Assembly: GCA_029392055.1 (NCBI GenBank)
Contig: CP113928.1
Span: 866,501-930,500 of the forward strand
Direction of reading: 5' to 3'
DNA from: Leuconostocaceae bacterium ESL0723
GTDB taxonomy: Bacteria > Bacillota > Bacilli > Lactobacillales > Lactobacillaceae
Length of the DNA: 64,000 nucleotides
A model generated the notes under the pieces. It did not search any database. It was not told the DNA's origin and saw only the letters and a program-made list of their open reading frames with translations. A program made the translations under genes and the position numbers. Below, in pieces: positions 40,029 through 45,451 of the stretch. The stretch's first letter is position 1. Every line of letters starts with the position of its first letter.

Positions 40029-40058
40029 AAAAGACGCCCTTGAAAGGACGTCTTTTTT
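40027..40058. terminator. Bidirectional terminator between MFS gene and the 98-residue ORF
   Basis: AAAAAAGACG (40027-40036) and CGTCTTTTTT (40049-40058) flank a 12-base loop; both converging stop codons lie at its edges. Confidence 0.88.
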
Positions 40059-40353
40059 ATTCACTTAACCAGGGTGACAAGGTTGTTAGGGGTACTTGAG
40101 CACTGGTCCACCGCTTTAGGGGTTGGAACTGGTGGCGGTCTTTAAAGGCCAGCGGGGCCCGGCCAATCACAGCCACGGCCTGGTTGGTTTCGGTTAGAAA
40201 AATCTGACCGAGTTCCTGGAAGCGACCGCGGGTGTGCTTACCAGTCCGCCACTGATGGGGTTGGCTGCCAGCTTCTGGTTGGTATTGACCATTGGCATCT
40301 TGATTAACCACTACGCCGGTAAAAATTTCGGTTTTATACTTACTCTGACTCAT
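40057..40353 (-). CDS. Uncharacterised 98-residue protein coupled to the CarB-like gene
   Basis: I do not recognise this small soluble protein. It begins MSQSKYKTEIFTGVVVNQ, has a polar middle (QPHQWRTGKHTRGRFQEL) and a beta-looking stretch (GQIFLTETNQAVAVIGRAPL), ending TTLSPWLSE. It has no cysteine or membrane segment. The ATG at 40353 lies inside the end of the CarB-like gene (14-nt overlap), so translation is coupled. That makes it a likely fourth product of the pyrR/CarA-like/CarB-like cluster. A role as partner or regulator of the complex is inference from position only. Confidence 0.65.
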   Translation of the reverse strand: MSQSKYKTEIFTGVVVNQDANGQYQPEAGSQPHQWRTGKHTRGRFQELGQIFLTETNQAVAVIGRAPLAFKDRHQFQPLKRWTSAQVPLTTLSPWLSE

Positions 40354-42874
40354 GGCTTCTTGCTCCACCGGGGGCCACTCGAACCCCCATTTCAAAGCGG
40401 GTCACATCCAGGTCCCCTTCTGGCTGTAGGTGCAACTGGAAATCGGTGCGGGCGTTAATCATCCGTTGATTGAGGAAGACATTGCGGGCAGGTGCTTCAG
40501 CCAAAAGCCGGTAGTCCCCCTCCCCGAGTTGGCCCAGCAGGGCCCGCACAACCAGGCGGAACCACTGAACACCAGTCGCTTTGCTCAAAAAGGCAATCTG
40601 ACCAAATGGCATCGGTCTCAGCCAGCTATCATGCTGCCAGTCGGCCAAGTTAACATGCGCCACCGGTTGGGTCACCTGCTGGTGGAAGACCAGCTGGAAG
40701 AGACCCGGACCTGGCAGGGACAGGTCTTTTAAATCCACGTTATCCAAATCGGTCTGCGGTAAGATGCGCAGCTCCCCGTCACGGTGCTGGCTGATATTTA
40801 ATGCAAAGGCCTGCTGCCCGTCATAAAAGAAATTCAAGGCAAACTCAGACTGGTTTTCCCCAGGCCCACCCGGTAGGTGCTTATCCTTGGGAATCACCAG
40901 CACATTTTGACCTAAATCTTTCAGAGCACGAATCAGCTTGCGGCGGTTACCTGGCACCATGATGGCCTTAGGATTTTCCTTATCAACCACCGCCATGACA
41001 TCAGAAATTTCCAGTGGTTCCAGATACTGCTTGTCAGACAGGTGCGGCAGTAAGGTCGCATCCTGACTGTTGTTGTTCATCATAACCGTTTGGTACTGGA
41101 GGCGGCGCAGTTCGGACAGGATAATGGTCGAGGCGTAACCACCAATCACCGTTTCCCCAATCCGGTAGGCGCCACTACCGACCACCAGAATACTCTGGTC
41201 ACTGAGACGGGTTGATTCATCTTCAAACTCGAAGCTGGCATAGTACTGGTGGGCATTTTCAGGAAATTCGCCAGCGGAAGGATCAACTGCCTTATAAGTA
41301 GGCTCAATCTGGTGCTGGGTAGCTAGCTGACGGATGCTTTCAAAGTTGGTCCGCCAAAAACGAGCAATTAAGCCATCTGAAAGGCCGGAACGCTTAGCCC
41401 GCAGGAGAATGTCGGCCTGGTCAGGATGGCTTTCCACTGCGGTTTCAATTTCAATCAGGGACTGGAGTTGGTAAAAGTAGAACTCATCAACGTGACTCAG
41501 TTCGGCCAGTTCATCAACCTCATAACCCCGCCGCAGGGCCTCGATAAAGAGCAGGACCCGGTTGTCTTCTGGATGAATCAATTGCTGGATCAACTCGTCA
41601 TCGCTGATATGGGCCATGTAGGTTGGCGAAAAGCTACGGTTGTTGAAGTGGGCCGAGCGAATGGCCTTCTCTAAGGCCTCCACGAAGGTCCGACCAAAAC
41701 CAACCGTACCCCCGACTGACTTTTGAATACTGCCTAACTGCCGATTCACCTTAACACCCGCAGCGGCTAAATCACCAAAGGGAAAAATCGGCAACTTAAC
41801 GGCAATGTGGTCCATCATCGGTTCCATCATCGCCATCTTCTCGTTGAAATCATGGGGCAGGTAAACCTTTTCCAGCGGGGTCCCCAGCATCAACTGCATT
41901 GATACTAGGGCCAGCGGATAGCCGGTCACCATGGCGACCCGACTGGCCAGCTGGTCAAAGTAGGGCGAAACCTTGATGATATAAATTAAATCCCGGGCCT
42001 CATCAACGGCAAATTGGACGTGTAAAAGCCCTTCCAACTGCAGTAAGTTTGCAATTTGAAAGGCATAGGACCGCATCTTCGCCAGAAATGGGTCTTGAAC
42101 GGTCAAAACCGGCGAAACACTGAGGGAATCAGCCGAATGAATCCCAATCGGGTCCATATCTTCACTGGTCCCAACCTGCATACAGTTCCCGCGAAAATCC
42201 CGGACAACTTCCATGCCAATTTCTTTCATGCCATTGATGGCCTTTGAAATAAGGACCTCAGCCGTTAACGACTGGGCGCGGACCTCGGCTACGGCCTGTT
42301 CCAATTCATCTAAGCGACTGACCAGTTGGCGGGTATGACTTTGAATGGGGTTTTGGGCGCGAATCACTAAGGGCAGGTTAATCTTACGCATCAGCTCATT
42401 GGCTTCATCCTGAGTGGCGGCCACTTCACTTTCAATGACGGGTAGGCCCGCCTCAGTCAACAGGGTCGACAGCTCAGCCCGGTTATTGACCTGGGCCACA
42501 ACCGGATTAGCCAGCCCCAAGGACTGGGGCAGCGGTCCGTCATCGTCCTGCCAATCCTGGGACAGGGCTTCCCAAATCTGCATGCTGCGTCGGCCACCAA
42601 AGGTGGCTACGACCGTGTCAATGTTGGCCTGGATAATGATTTTTTTAATGTTCTCAACCGTTAACGGTTGCCAAAAAGCCTGAGCAGCCAAGCTTTCTAG
42701 GGAAAGAGCATAGGGATTATCGTCGATGACAAAGACCTGGTAGCCTAGACCATGGAGCTCCGGTAAGACCTGGTAAATGGCCGCATCGTTTTCTCCCTGG
42801 ACACCAAAACCATTGGGGCCGGCCCCAATAAAGAGGATATTTTTAATCGGATGTTTAGCTGTGCTGTTCCACAT
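40340..42874 (-). CDS. carB: CarB-like protein, degenerate carbamoyl-phosphate synthase large subunit
   Basis: This 844-residue homologue of CarB (normally about 1060). The first half aligns throughout: GAGPNGFG near 17, EMEVVRD-like GMEVVRDFRGN near 220, DPIGIHSADSLSVSP near 241, LLHVQFAV near 283. Key sites have changed: the Gly-rich ATP loop (usually PSFTMGGSGGG) reads AQNPIQSHTR near 173-182, and the metal-binding E-M-N-P reads K-V-S-P at 301-304. The second half starts normally (ILVVGSGAYRIGE; MNNNSQDATLLP; DKQYLEPLEISDVM). It then loses most of the second ATP-grasp domain and the whole C-terminal allosteric domain. The frame is uninterrupted and overlaps the CarA-like gene by 20 nt. Carbamoyl-phosphate synthesis is unlikely. 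Confidence 0.85.
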   Translation of the reverse strand: MWNSTAKHPIKNILFIGAGPNGFGVQGENDAAIYQVLPELHGLGYQVFVIDDNPYALSLESLAAQAFWQPLTVENIKKIIIQANIDTVVATFGGRRSMQIWEALSQDWQDDDGPLPQSLGLANPVVAQVNNRAELSTLLTEAGLPVIESEVAATQDEANELMRKINLPLVIRAQNPIQSHTRQLVSRLDELEQAVAEVRAQSLTAEVLISKAINGMKEIGMEVVRDFRGNCMQVGTSEDMDPIGIHSADSLSVSPVLTVQDPFLAKMRSYAFQIANLLQLEGLLHVQFAVDEARDLIYIIKVSPYFDQLASRVAMVTGYPLALVSMQLMLGTPLEKVYLPHDFNEKMAMMEPMMDHIAVKLPIFPFGDLAAAGVKVNRQLGSIQKSVGGTVGFGRTFVEALEKAIRSAHFNNRSFSPTYMAHISDDELIQQLIHPEDNRVLLFIEALRRGYEVDELAELSHVDEFYFYQLQSLIEIETAVESHPDQADILLRAKRSGLSDGLIARFWRTNFESIRQLATQHQIEPTYKAVDPSAGEFPENAHQYYASFEFEDESTRLSDQSILVVGSGAYRIGETVIGGYASTIILSELRRLQYQTVMMNNNSQDATLLPHLSDKQYLEPLEISDVMAVVDKENPKAIMVPGNRRKLIRALKDLGQNVLVIPKDKHLPGGPGENQSEFALNFFYDGQQAFALNISQHRDGELRILPQTDLDNVDLKDLSLPGPGLFQLVFHQQVTQPVAHVNLADWQHDSWLRPMPFGQIAFLSKATGVQWFRLVVRALLGQLGEGDYRLLAEAPARNVFLNQRMINARTDFQLHLQPEGDLDVTRFEMGVRVAPGGARSHESE

Positions 42875-43934
42875 AATCTTCTACCGTTTCAAAAAAATCC
42901 GAATAAACTACGTTGGCCTCGGTTGGTCCAGGGGCCCCGTCCGCAAAGAACTGGACGCTAAAGGCTGGGTAATCCCGGTGACGCAGGCCCTGAATAGAGT
43001 TGTCCACCAAGTCGCGGTAGGTCACAAACATCTTCTTGTGGTTAATCGTCTGATCGTCAACCACGTAACCGCGGCCCTGCATGGCATAAAAAATCTGCTG
43101 GGTAATAATTTCCTGGATGGGATGGTTCATACCATGGTACTCAGCCGGCAAGGCGGTTAAAGCCGCGCCATTAGCCAGGGCAAAGAGTTCATGGCCTAGA
43201 CCAACCCCCAGCATGGGCGCCTTGGTCTGCAAAACCCGAATCAGGGTCAGGACACTTTCGGGTAATGAATTTGGGTTACCCGGACCAGTTGAGAGGATAA
43301 TACCATCGGGATCGAGGGTCAAAATTTCATTAATACTGGTGGTATATGGTAGGACGGAAACGTTGGCCTCGTGGTCATCTAACATCCGCAAAATACCGTG
43401 TTTTAAACCAAAGTCGATGACTACAATGTGGCGGCCGCGACCAGGATTGGCATAGGCCTTAGGTGTCGCGGTGTTCTTCACCTGTTTGTTGGTCAAGACC
43501 GTAGCAATTAACTGGTCAAAGGCGTGATCGTCCGCATAGTCAACGATGCTGGCCCGCTGGGGGCCACTTTCACGCAGGTGGCGGATGAGCTGCCGGGTAT
43601 CAACCTGGTAAAGCCCGGGAATGTTGTACTGTTTCAAAAAACGGTCCAGGTTCATCCGGCGCTGCCGGTTAGTTGATACCTCGGCCAAATCATGGACAAT
43701 CATCCCCCGGATGGTGGGTTGCATCGACTCATTGGCTTCGGCATGAATGCCGTTCGCCCCGGCCACTGGCATACCAAAGGCAATCATCTGCCCGTCATAG
43801 ATGGGGTTGGTAATTGTTTCTTGGTAGCCGGTCATGGCCGTATCAAAAATAATTTCACCAAAGGTGGTTGCCGGTGCGCCAAAGCCCTCACCGGTAAAAA
43901 CCGAACCATCTTCTAGGATTAAATGCCTTTGCAT
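42855..43934 (-). CDS. carA: CarA-like protein without glutaminase triad
   Basis: This 359-residue protein aligns with CarA over its full length (MQRHLILEDGSVFTGEGFG; TGYQETITNPIYDGQM; VDTRQLIRHLRESG; DFGLKHGILRML; STGPGNPNSLPESV). The class I glutaminase triad is gone. GICLGHQ has become GVGLGHE with Gly245 in place of the nucleophilic Cys; QYHPE has become QFFAD, replacing His by Phe330 and Glu by Asp332; QNHGY has become QGRGY. It should not hydrolyse glutamine. The ATG at 43934 has TGGAG upstream. It lies 35 nt after pyrR and overlaps the CarB-like gene by 20 nt. Confidence 0.88.
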   Translation of the reverse strand: MQRHLILEDGSVFTGEGFGAPATTFGEIIFDTAMTGYQETITNPIYDGQMIAFGMPVAGANGIHAEANESMQPTIRGMIVHDLAEVSTNRQRRMNLDRFLKQYNIPGLYQVDTRQLIRHLRESGPQRASIVDYADDHAFDQLIATVLTNKQVKNTATPKAYANPGRGRHIVVIDFGLKHGILRMLDDHEANVSVLPYTTSINEILTLDPDGIILSTGPGNPNSLPESVLTLIRVLQTKAPMLGVGLGHELFALANGAALTALPAEYHGMNHPIQEIITQQIFYAMQGRGYVVDDQTINHKKMFVTYRDLVDNSIQGLRHRDYPAFSVQFFADGAPGPTEANVVYSDFFETVEDYVEQHS

Positions 43935-43969
43935 ACTGACTCCAATCTGAACTGGAAAAGCTGCCAATC

Positions 43970-44503
43970 TTAGTGGGCGTGGACAATTTCAACCGCATCC
44001 CGGCCATCAACTTCATCCACTAGGACCCGGATTTTCTCGTTTTGTGCGGTTGGGATGTTTTTACCGACAAAATCGGCCCGGATTGGCAGTTCGCGGTGAC
44101 CGCGATCAACTAGGACAGCCAGCGAAATCGACTTAGGCCGGCCAATATGAATCAGGGCATCTAAGGCAGCCCGAATGGTGCGGCCGGTGAAGAGCACATC
44201 ATCCACGATGACAATGTTCTTATCGACAATATTGATACCATCATCTGAGTCCAACAGAACCTGGTCACTGGCGTCCAAAACATCGTCGCGGTAGCTGGTG
44301 ATGTCTAAGGCCATCACTGGGATTTCAACGTTTTCCAGCTGTTCTAGGCGGTTAGCAATCCGATGGGCTAAAAACTCACCCCGGGTCTTAATCCCAACTA
44401 GGATTAATCCTTGACCGCCCTTATTGCGCTCTAAAATTTCATAGGTAATCCGCGTCAAAGCGCGTTGTAATGAAGCCTGATCTAAAACTTCCTTGGTTGC
44501 CAT
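43970..44503 (-). CDS. pyrR: Bifunctional pyr regulator/uracil phosphoribosyltransferase PyrR
   Basis: This 177-residue PyrR binds UMP and pyr mRNA to promote attenuation and has weak uracil phosphoribosyltransferase activity. It starts [20 protein letters not shown]. The PRPP motif [20 protein letters not shown] is intact, and [19 protein letters not shown] is typical. No PyrR-type attenuator is evident in the short spacers on either side (36 nt to rluD, 35 nt to the CarA-like gene). Genes for the rest of UMP synthesis are not in the window. Its usual target may therefore be elsewhere. Confidence 0.95.
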
Positions 44504-44539: not shown

Positions 44540-45451
44540 TCACTGTTTTAAGGTTGCCAGGGCCTTTTGAAAATAATCGGGTAAGGGGCTGTCAAAACTG
44601 AGTTCTTCCCCAGTTGTCGGCTGGGTCAGACTCAGGCTAGCCGCATGTAATAACTGACCGTGTAAGGCCACCCCTGGGAGACGACTGGCATTGCCATAAA
44701 CCGGGTCGCCAACCACTGGATGGTGAATGTAGGCCATGTGAACTCGGATTTGATGGGTCCGCCCGGTTTCCAGGAAAATCTTTAACAAAGTATAGCCCTG
44801 AAAACGTTCAGCAACCTCAAAGTGAGTCACTGCGGTCCGGCCGCCAGCAACAACGGCCTGCTTCTTCCGGTCAACCGGGTGCCGGCCGAGCGATGCATCA
44901 ATGGTGCCCTGATTTTCTTCAAACTCACCCTTCACTAAGGCGTAGTACACCCGCTGGTTTTTATGGGCCTTTAACTGCTGGGACAAAGCCTGGTGGGCCT
45001 GGTCATTTTTGGCCACCATCAGTAGGCCACTCGTATCACGGTCAATCCGGTGAACAATCCCAGGCCGCTGCTCGCCGTTAATCGTTGACAGCGGCGCATG
45101 AGCCAATAAGGCATTCACCAGGGTACCCGTCGCATGTCCAGCAGCGGGATGAACAACCATCCCCTGGGGTTTGTTAACCACTAAGAGGTCCTGGTCTTCA
45201 TACACCACATCCAGGGGAATATCTTCGGCCACCAGTTCAGTCGGCTTGGTGGCTGGCACGTCAATGGTCACCTGGTCGTCAGCGCTAACCTTGTAGGAGG
45301 CCTTCACTTTTTCCTGGTTAACCAGTAGGTTCCCACTACTAATCCAATCTGCCACCTTGGCCCGCGAGTACTCGGTAAAGTGAGCGGCGACCACCTTGTC
45401 TAACCGTTGGCCCGCCTGGTCGGGACTAATTGTCATTACCTGATCTGCCAT
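44540..45451 (-). CDS. rluD: RluD-family rRNA pseudouridine synthase
   Basis: This 303-residue enzyme has an N-terminal S4 domain (QRLDKVVAAHFTEYSRAKVA) and a catalytic domain with the signature HRIDRDTSGLLMVAKN (catalytic Asp) and HQIRVHMAYIHHPVVGDPVY. It modifies 23S rRNA, as the B. subtilis YlyB type located next to pyrR. The gene overlaps the EbsA-like gene (TAATG) and precedes pyrR, the conserved Firmicute order. Confidence 0.93.
   Translation of the reverse strand: MADQVMTISPDQAGQRLDKVVAAHFTEYSRAKVADWISSGNLLVNQEKVKASYKVSADDQVTIDVPATKPTELVAEDIPLDVVYEDQDLLVVNKPQGMVVHPAAGHATGTLVNALLAHAPLSTINGEQRPGIVHRIDRDTSGLLMVAKNDQAHQALSQQLKAHKNQRVYYALVKGEFEENQGTIDASLGRHPVDRKKQAVVAGGRTAVTHFEVAERFQGYTLLKIFLETGRTHQIRVHMAYIHHPVVGDPVYGNASRLPGVALHGQLLHAASLSLTQPTTGEELSFDSPLPDYFQKALATLKQ

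Follow-up and report, generated by a model that had tools for sequence, protein, structure and literature searches.

A carbamoyl-phosphate synthase-like pair beside pyrR in Lactobacillaceae, very probably a maintained pseudoenzyme

Described systems and the layout of the locus

The large subunit of carbamoyl-phosphate synthase (CPS), CarB, is about 1060 residues long and comprises two ATP-grasp units and an MGS domain. A CarA that is dead as a glutaminase would, together with an intact CarB, make an ammonia-dependent synthase, as in mammalian CPS I. In lactic acid bacteria, a second described system is PyrR2 of Lactiplantibacillus plantarum, whose deletion reportedly creates a need for high CO2, or for arginine plus pyrimidine. 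PyrR2 is lp_1782 (PMC7911632) and reportedly tunes the pyr operon in response to inorganic carbon (PMC3582564). Our literature search turned up no description of the way in which PyrR2 detects inorganic carbon, and no paper on the CarA-like and CarB-like pair described here.

The window, which is the whole 64,000-nucleotide stretch of DNA that was analysed, carries the cluster rluD-pyrR-carA-like-carB-like-DUF7671, with all genes on the minus strand. An open reading frame for an RluD-like pseudouridine synthase (44540..45451), the conserved upstream neighbour in nearly all related loci, is followed by pyrR (43970..44503), the carA-like gene (42855..43934, assigned from Pfam and NCBIfam matches and residue comparison), the 844-codon carB-like gene (40340..42874), in which frame and predicted fold are kept, and a gene for a 98-residue protein (40057..40353). 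The carA-like and carB-like genes overlap by 20 nt (42855-42874), and the carB-like gene overlaps the last gene by 14 nt (40340-40353). The start of the carA-like gene was placed at a conserved ATG; its open reading frame reaches back to a TTG at 43967. No frame in the cluster is broken and there are no stops, and the ORF coordinates bear out the tight order, the two overlaps and the lack of frameshifts described in an earlier note on this DNA. Beyond the last gene, a hairpin with A/T flanks was read by eye on the minus strand (40030..40060), and is a probable terminator common to the DUF7671 gene and a convergent MFS gene; the terminator scan did not call it.

The host genome is 1.43 Mb in one contig. 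Inside the window, genome searches with PyrB, CarA/CarB and PyrD matched no pyr enzyme gene beyond the carA-like and carB-like pair, in line with the earlier note, which had seen no pyrB, C, D, E or F nearby and had proposed looking for canonical carAB and other pyr genes elsewhere. That search found the full canonical set outside the window: a pyrB-pyrC-carA-carB-pyrF-pyrE operon, with a CarB of 1059 residues, lies ∼240 kb from the window edge, and pyrD is also present elsewhere in the genome.

PyrR of the window scores 256.7 bits against NCBIfam NF003548 (cut-off 218), and its catalytic, PRPP-binding and RNA-binding residues are retained in a comparison with a B. subtilis reference sequence. 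It is the sole PyrR of the genome, the other match (30% identity) resembling hypoxanthine phosphoribosyltransferase.

The 98-residue protein had been taken to be a new small protein. Instead, it belongs to Pfam family DUF7671 (PF24710; 125.1 bits against a gathering threshold of 27, E 1.1e-36) and is therefore uncharacterised rather than new. Its gene adjoins carB-like genes only in the Leuconostoc/Fructobacillus/Convivina group, and in most genera it stands alone, with no conserved neighbour. The predicted model is all-beta (pLDDT 90); Foldseek gave no PDB match for it, and the VIA hits were at noise level (best Z 5.5).

Lost catalytic residues and strong constraint

The CarA-like protein has both domains of a CPS small subunit (PF00988, CPSase small chain, 143 bits; PF00117, class-I GATase, 105 bits) and passes NCBIfam NF009475 (400.5 bits against a cut-off of 221), with the nucleophile, the triad histidine and the glutamine-site residues absent. 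Residue positions are given in E. coli numbering, mapped via PDB 1bxr, and the roles of the residues follow the general understanding of CPS structure. The window protein carries C269G, S47I, Q273E and H353F. Across the 89 distinct core CarA-like sequences, the nucleophile C269 is Gly in every one, Q273 is Glu in 88, Phe replaces the triad residue H353 in 83, and S47 has become Ile in 84 (Ile or Val in nearly all), while N311 is Gly or Ala in nearly all. S47, C269, Q273 and N311 are all retained in 19/19 sequences of the Cys-retaining CarA group. The change at E355 is not diagnostic, because the canonical CarA of these bacteria also has Asp there. Separately, one CarA (locus L169, genome G034) retains Cys269 and has His353 replaced by Leu.

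At ∼840 residues, the CarB-like protein falls below the cut-off of the CPS large-subunit equivalog (TIGR01369; 427.7 against 1027). Most of ATP-grasp 2 is deleted, the MGS domain is missing and the Gly loop of ATP-grasp 1 is gone. The 95 short CarB sequences have E299 replaced by Lys or Arg in 90, R303 by Tyr or Phe in 89 and G179 by Arg in 90, with E215, D238, G241, H243 and S247 retained, and the Mg-ligand set of ATP-grasp 1 (E299/N301 with R303) is not present. The oligomerisation domain is recognisable (PF02787, 68.7 bits), and the predicted model (pLDDT 88.9, pTM 0.90) superposes on E. coli CarB with a TM-score of 0.83. These substitutions include a charge reversal in ATP-grasp 1 and read as the remodelling of a pocket into a more basic one, not as random decay. 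As R303 is the canonical bicarbonate/phosphate residue, its loss makes direct sensing of bicarbonate at this site unlikely.

Other states of the two genes occur among the loci that we compared. Locus L208 (G022) combines a C269G CarA with a CarB in which ATP-grasp 1 is intact and ATP-grasp 2 damaged. It looks like an intermediate stage, and suggests that decay can begin at the second site. Locus L061 (G039; also G047 and G054) has the order PyrR-PyrB-CarA(C269G)-CarB, with a CarB of only about 580 residues that is missing its second half. In the same order of bacteria, locus L171 (G045:C1:430034-431095) has a sole CarA with C269 replaced by Gly and H353 by Asn, a full-length CarB and an ordinary-looking pyr region, and may encode an ammonia-dependent synthase.

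Selection was assessed as dN/dS by the Nei-Gojobori method over 11-17 species pairs per gene, with saturated-dS pairs excluded. Median values were 0.016 for the CarA-like protein, 0.025 for the CarB-like protein, 0.018 for PyrR and 0.053 for RluD, with 0.09 for DUF7671 from three pairs only. The pair is thus about as constrained as PyrR, and its dN/dS is below that of RluD. Full-length copies of both genes are present at 96 of the 98 core loci fetched across Lactobacillaceae, the two exceptions being L089, from an unverified assembly, and L133, on a short contig. Pseudogene decay is rejected on the low dN/dS together with the unbroken frames.

The earlier note had called the pair maintained and catalytically dead, and this description is strongly supported by the median dN/dS of 0.016-0.025, by substitutions fixed across 89-95 sequences, by the loss of catalytic residues from both subunits and by the 96 intact loci. 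Both proteins fit the definition of a pseudoenzyme, an enzyme homologue that lacks catalytic residues and is kept by selection, and we conclude with high confidence that they form a maintained pseudoenzyme pair. Their catalytic residues are lost, yet the genes are preserved as strictly as working ones, so their job is probably non-catalytic. Being as constrained as PyrR across much of a large bacterial family, the pair must matter to the cell.

Distribution, ancestry and linkage to pyrR

Searching the proteins of 60 relatives and scanning named genomes placed the cluster in Leuconostoc, Fructobacillus, Convivina, Weissella, Periweissella, Lactiplantibacillus (including L. plantarum EGD-AQ4), Limosilactobacillus, Secundilactobacillus, Furfurilactobacillus and Paucilactobacillus, ten named genera altogether. 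The closest named genomes belong to ‘Lactobacillaceae bacterium L1_55_11’ and Convivina. Of the 37 genomes of the family (36 genera), the core pair is present in 20, where CarB reads open for some 820-900 residues. At this site a further four (G004, G009, G010, G036) carry short, very strongly diverged pairs, and five have degenerate pairs that are longer or partly truncated (G011, G015, G022, G023, G028). In G010, the very divergent pair lies beside a degenerate PyrR at the rluD site (L062:8582-9058), which is 158 residues long and has lost its PRPP-loop residues.

DUF7671 was found in 19 of the 20 core-pair genomes and in G030, which has no pair, and in no others among the 60 searched. Its distribution nearly equals that of the core pair although the genes are unlinked in most genera; this co-distribution is confounded by shared ancestry.

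Five genomes (G012, G013, G026, G031, G032) have a full rluD-pyrR-permease-pyrB-pyrC-carA-carB-...-pyrF-pyrE operon at the same site, the permease being named from its size and place. Their CarA retains the Cys and their CarB retains all 24 checked residues. Given these intact operons, the pair is best read as a remnant of such an operon, descended from an ancestral lspA-rluD-pyrR-pyrP-pyrBC-carAB operon. In the CarA tree, the core CarA-like clade has 100/100 support; G011 and G023 are placed near Cys-bearing sequences, a hint of repeated loss, and the most divergent copies cannot be placed because of long branches. Several independent origins of dead CarA were considered and not adopted, as AU tests leave a single origin unrejected (p 0.128 with L025; 0.051 with L025 and L058). 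The resolution of an RluD tree was too weak for placing the losses on the species tree.

The order rluD-pyrR-carA-like-carB-like is nearly constant among related loci. In some Limosilactobacillus and Paucilactobacillus the pair is kept although pyrR has gone from the locus, and every genome with the pair that was examined for PyrR has one, the gene lying elsewhere in these cases. The synteny goes back to the ancestral pyr operon, so the linkage weighs less as evidence than it appears to. The distances of the CarA-like and CarB-like proteins correlate beyond the history of RluD (partial r 0.69), and those of either with PyrR do so at 0.51-0.56; we read these values as supportive, because control pairs with RluD also reach 0.46-0.48.

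A PyrR RNA element is predicted before pyrB of the distant operon (L053) by a covariance model (RF00515; 51.8 bits, just below the gathering threshold of 54, E 2.6e-6), and a scan for consensus PyrR sites gave no excess in L053 or in the window. With this element upstream of pyrB, PyrR of the window probably regulates the distant operon in trans. In four genomes (G014, G016, G025, G035) there is no canonical CarA, CarB or PyrB, yet both PyrR and the pair are retained; two of the four have a PyrR element ahead of an apparent NCS2-type permease, named by eye. These genomes suggest that the pair is not strictly dependent on a canonical synthase. They weaken that strict dependence as a candidate, although some of the losses may be recent, canonical CarA being present in Furfurilactobacillus milii, F. 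rossiae and four Secundilactobacillus species.

L. plantarum has three CarA genes and two PyrR proteins that are 66% identical, one heading the pyr operon and the other preceding the carA-like and carB-like genes (L121). By elimination, the latter is PyrR2.

Possible roles and comparison with known systems

Since the pair sits with PyrR2, reported as a regulator responding to inorganic carbon, in L. plantarum, a sensor or adaptor working with PyrR is our best guess. The two proteins probably still form a heterodimer. The remodelled ATP-grasp or amidotransferase pockets of this complex would hold a small anionic ligand such as carbamoyl phosphate, a nucleotide or PRPP, and binding would adjust how PyrR controls pyr operons and the uracil permease, the partner being PyrR2 where two PyrR proteins occur. 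Taken whole, with its pseudoenzyme and heterodimer parts, we put this statement forward tentatively. In its favour are the nearly constant gene order, a constraint matching that of PyrR, the specific fixed substitutions, the presence of PyrR in all pair-bearing genomes examined for it, the genomes that retain PyrR and the pair but no canonical CarA, CarB and PyrB, and the well-predicted CarB-like fold. The earlier note had likewise suggested, as an example, a nucleotide- or amino-acid-sensing scaffold working with PyrR, which fits the synteny and the PyrR2 literature; against it, the synteny is partly inherited and pyrR has gone from some loci. A more specific form, in which PyrR2 relies on the pair as its sensor of inorganic-carbon or carbamoyl-phosphate status when it adjusts the pyrimidine and arginine metabolism of lactic acid bacteria, appears quite unlikely to us. 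Were it true, the phenotype credited to PyrR2 would depend on, or even stem from, the adjacent carA-like and carB-like genes.

The main rival is a regulatory decoy, with one or both proteins entering mixed oligomers with working CarA/CarB and altering how active or stable these are, or how they respond to CO2, UMP or arginine. The recognisable oligomerisation domain and the presence of canonical CarA/CarB in most genomes with the pair both agree with this, but the four genomes that have the pair without canonical CarA, CarB and PyrB do not, with the reservation on recent losses given above, and we consider a decoy unlikely. The same fixed, family-specific residues and strong constraint that argue against random loss could also reflect a new enzymatic activity, with a different reaction catalysed in the remodelled pockets independently of the canonical Mg ligands. 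This we judge improbable, as the nucleophile, the Mg ligands and the Gly-rich loop are missing along with most of the second ATP-grasp, and such an activity would fit no known ATP-grasp chemistry.

Retention in cis, through expression of the downstream gene or translational coupling, or slow decay of a recent relic, would accord with the tight overlap with DUF7671 in this clade and with the few damaged copies (L133). The dN/dS values, the 96 full-length loci and the absence of a DUF7671 gene behind the pair in most genera make it very improbable. Least credible of all is continued synthesis of carbamoyl phosphate by the pair, for instance in an ammonia-dependent way. G045, which belongs to a related family, is a possible example, but the core CarB-like proteins lack working residues in both ATP-grasp domains, and an active ammonia-dependent synthase in the core family is rejected on this degeneracy. 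The sensor or adaptor for PyrR stays our preferred reading. Whatever the role, the CarA-like protein passes NCBIfam ‘carbamoyl phosphate synthase’ cut-offs, and metabolic models of lactic acid bacteria may therefore include a synthase unable to work.

Compared with carbamoyl-phosphate synthase itself (TIGR01368/TIGR01369; E. coli 1a9x and 1bxr), the pair shares homology throughout CarA, domains 1-3 and the second pre-ATP-grasp of CarB, the gene order and the overall fold (TM 0.83), but has no glutaminase triad, ATP-grasp-1 Mg ligands, Gly loop or MGS domain, and ATP-grasp 2 is mostly deleted. It shares its chromosomal site (lspA-rluD-pyrR) and its pyrR ... carA-carB order with the ancestral type of operon seen in the five intact genomes, whereas the window site is without the permease, pyrB, pyrC, pyrF and pyrE and its carAB are pseudoenzymes. 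The pyrR2 locus of L. plantarum is, by elimination, the same rluD-PyrR-CarA-like-CarB-like locus; L. plantarum additionally has PyrR1 in its pyr operon, whereas the window genome has just one PyrR.
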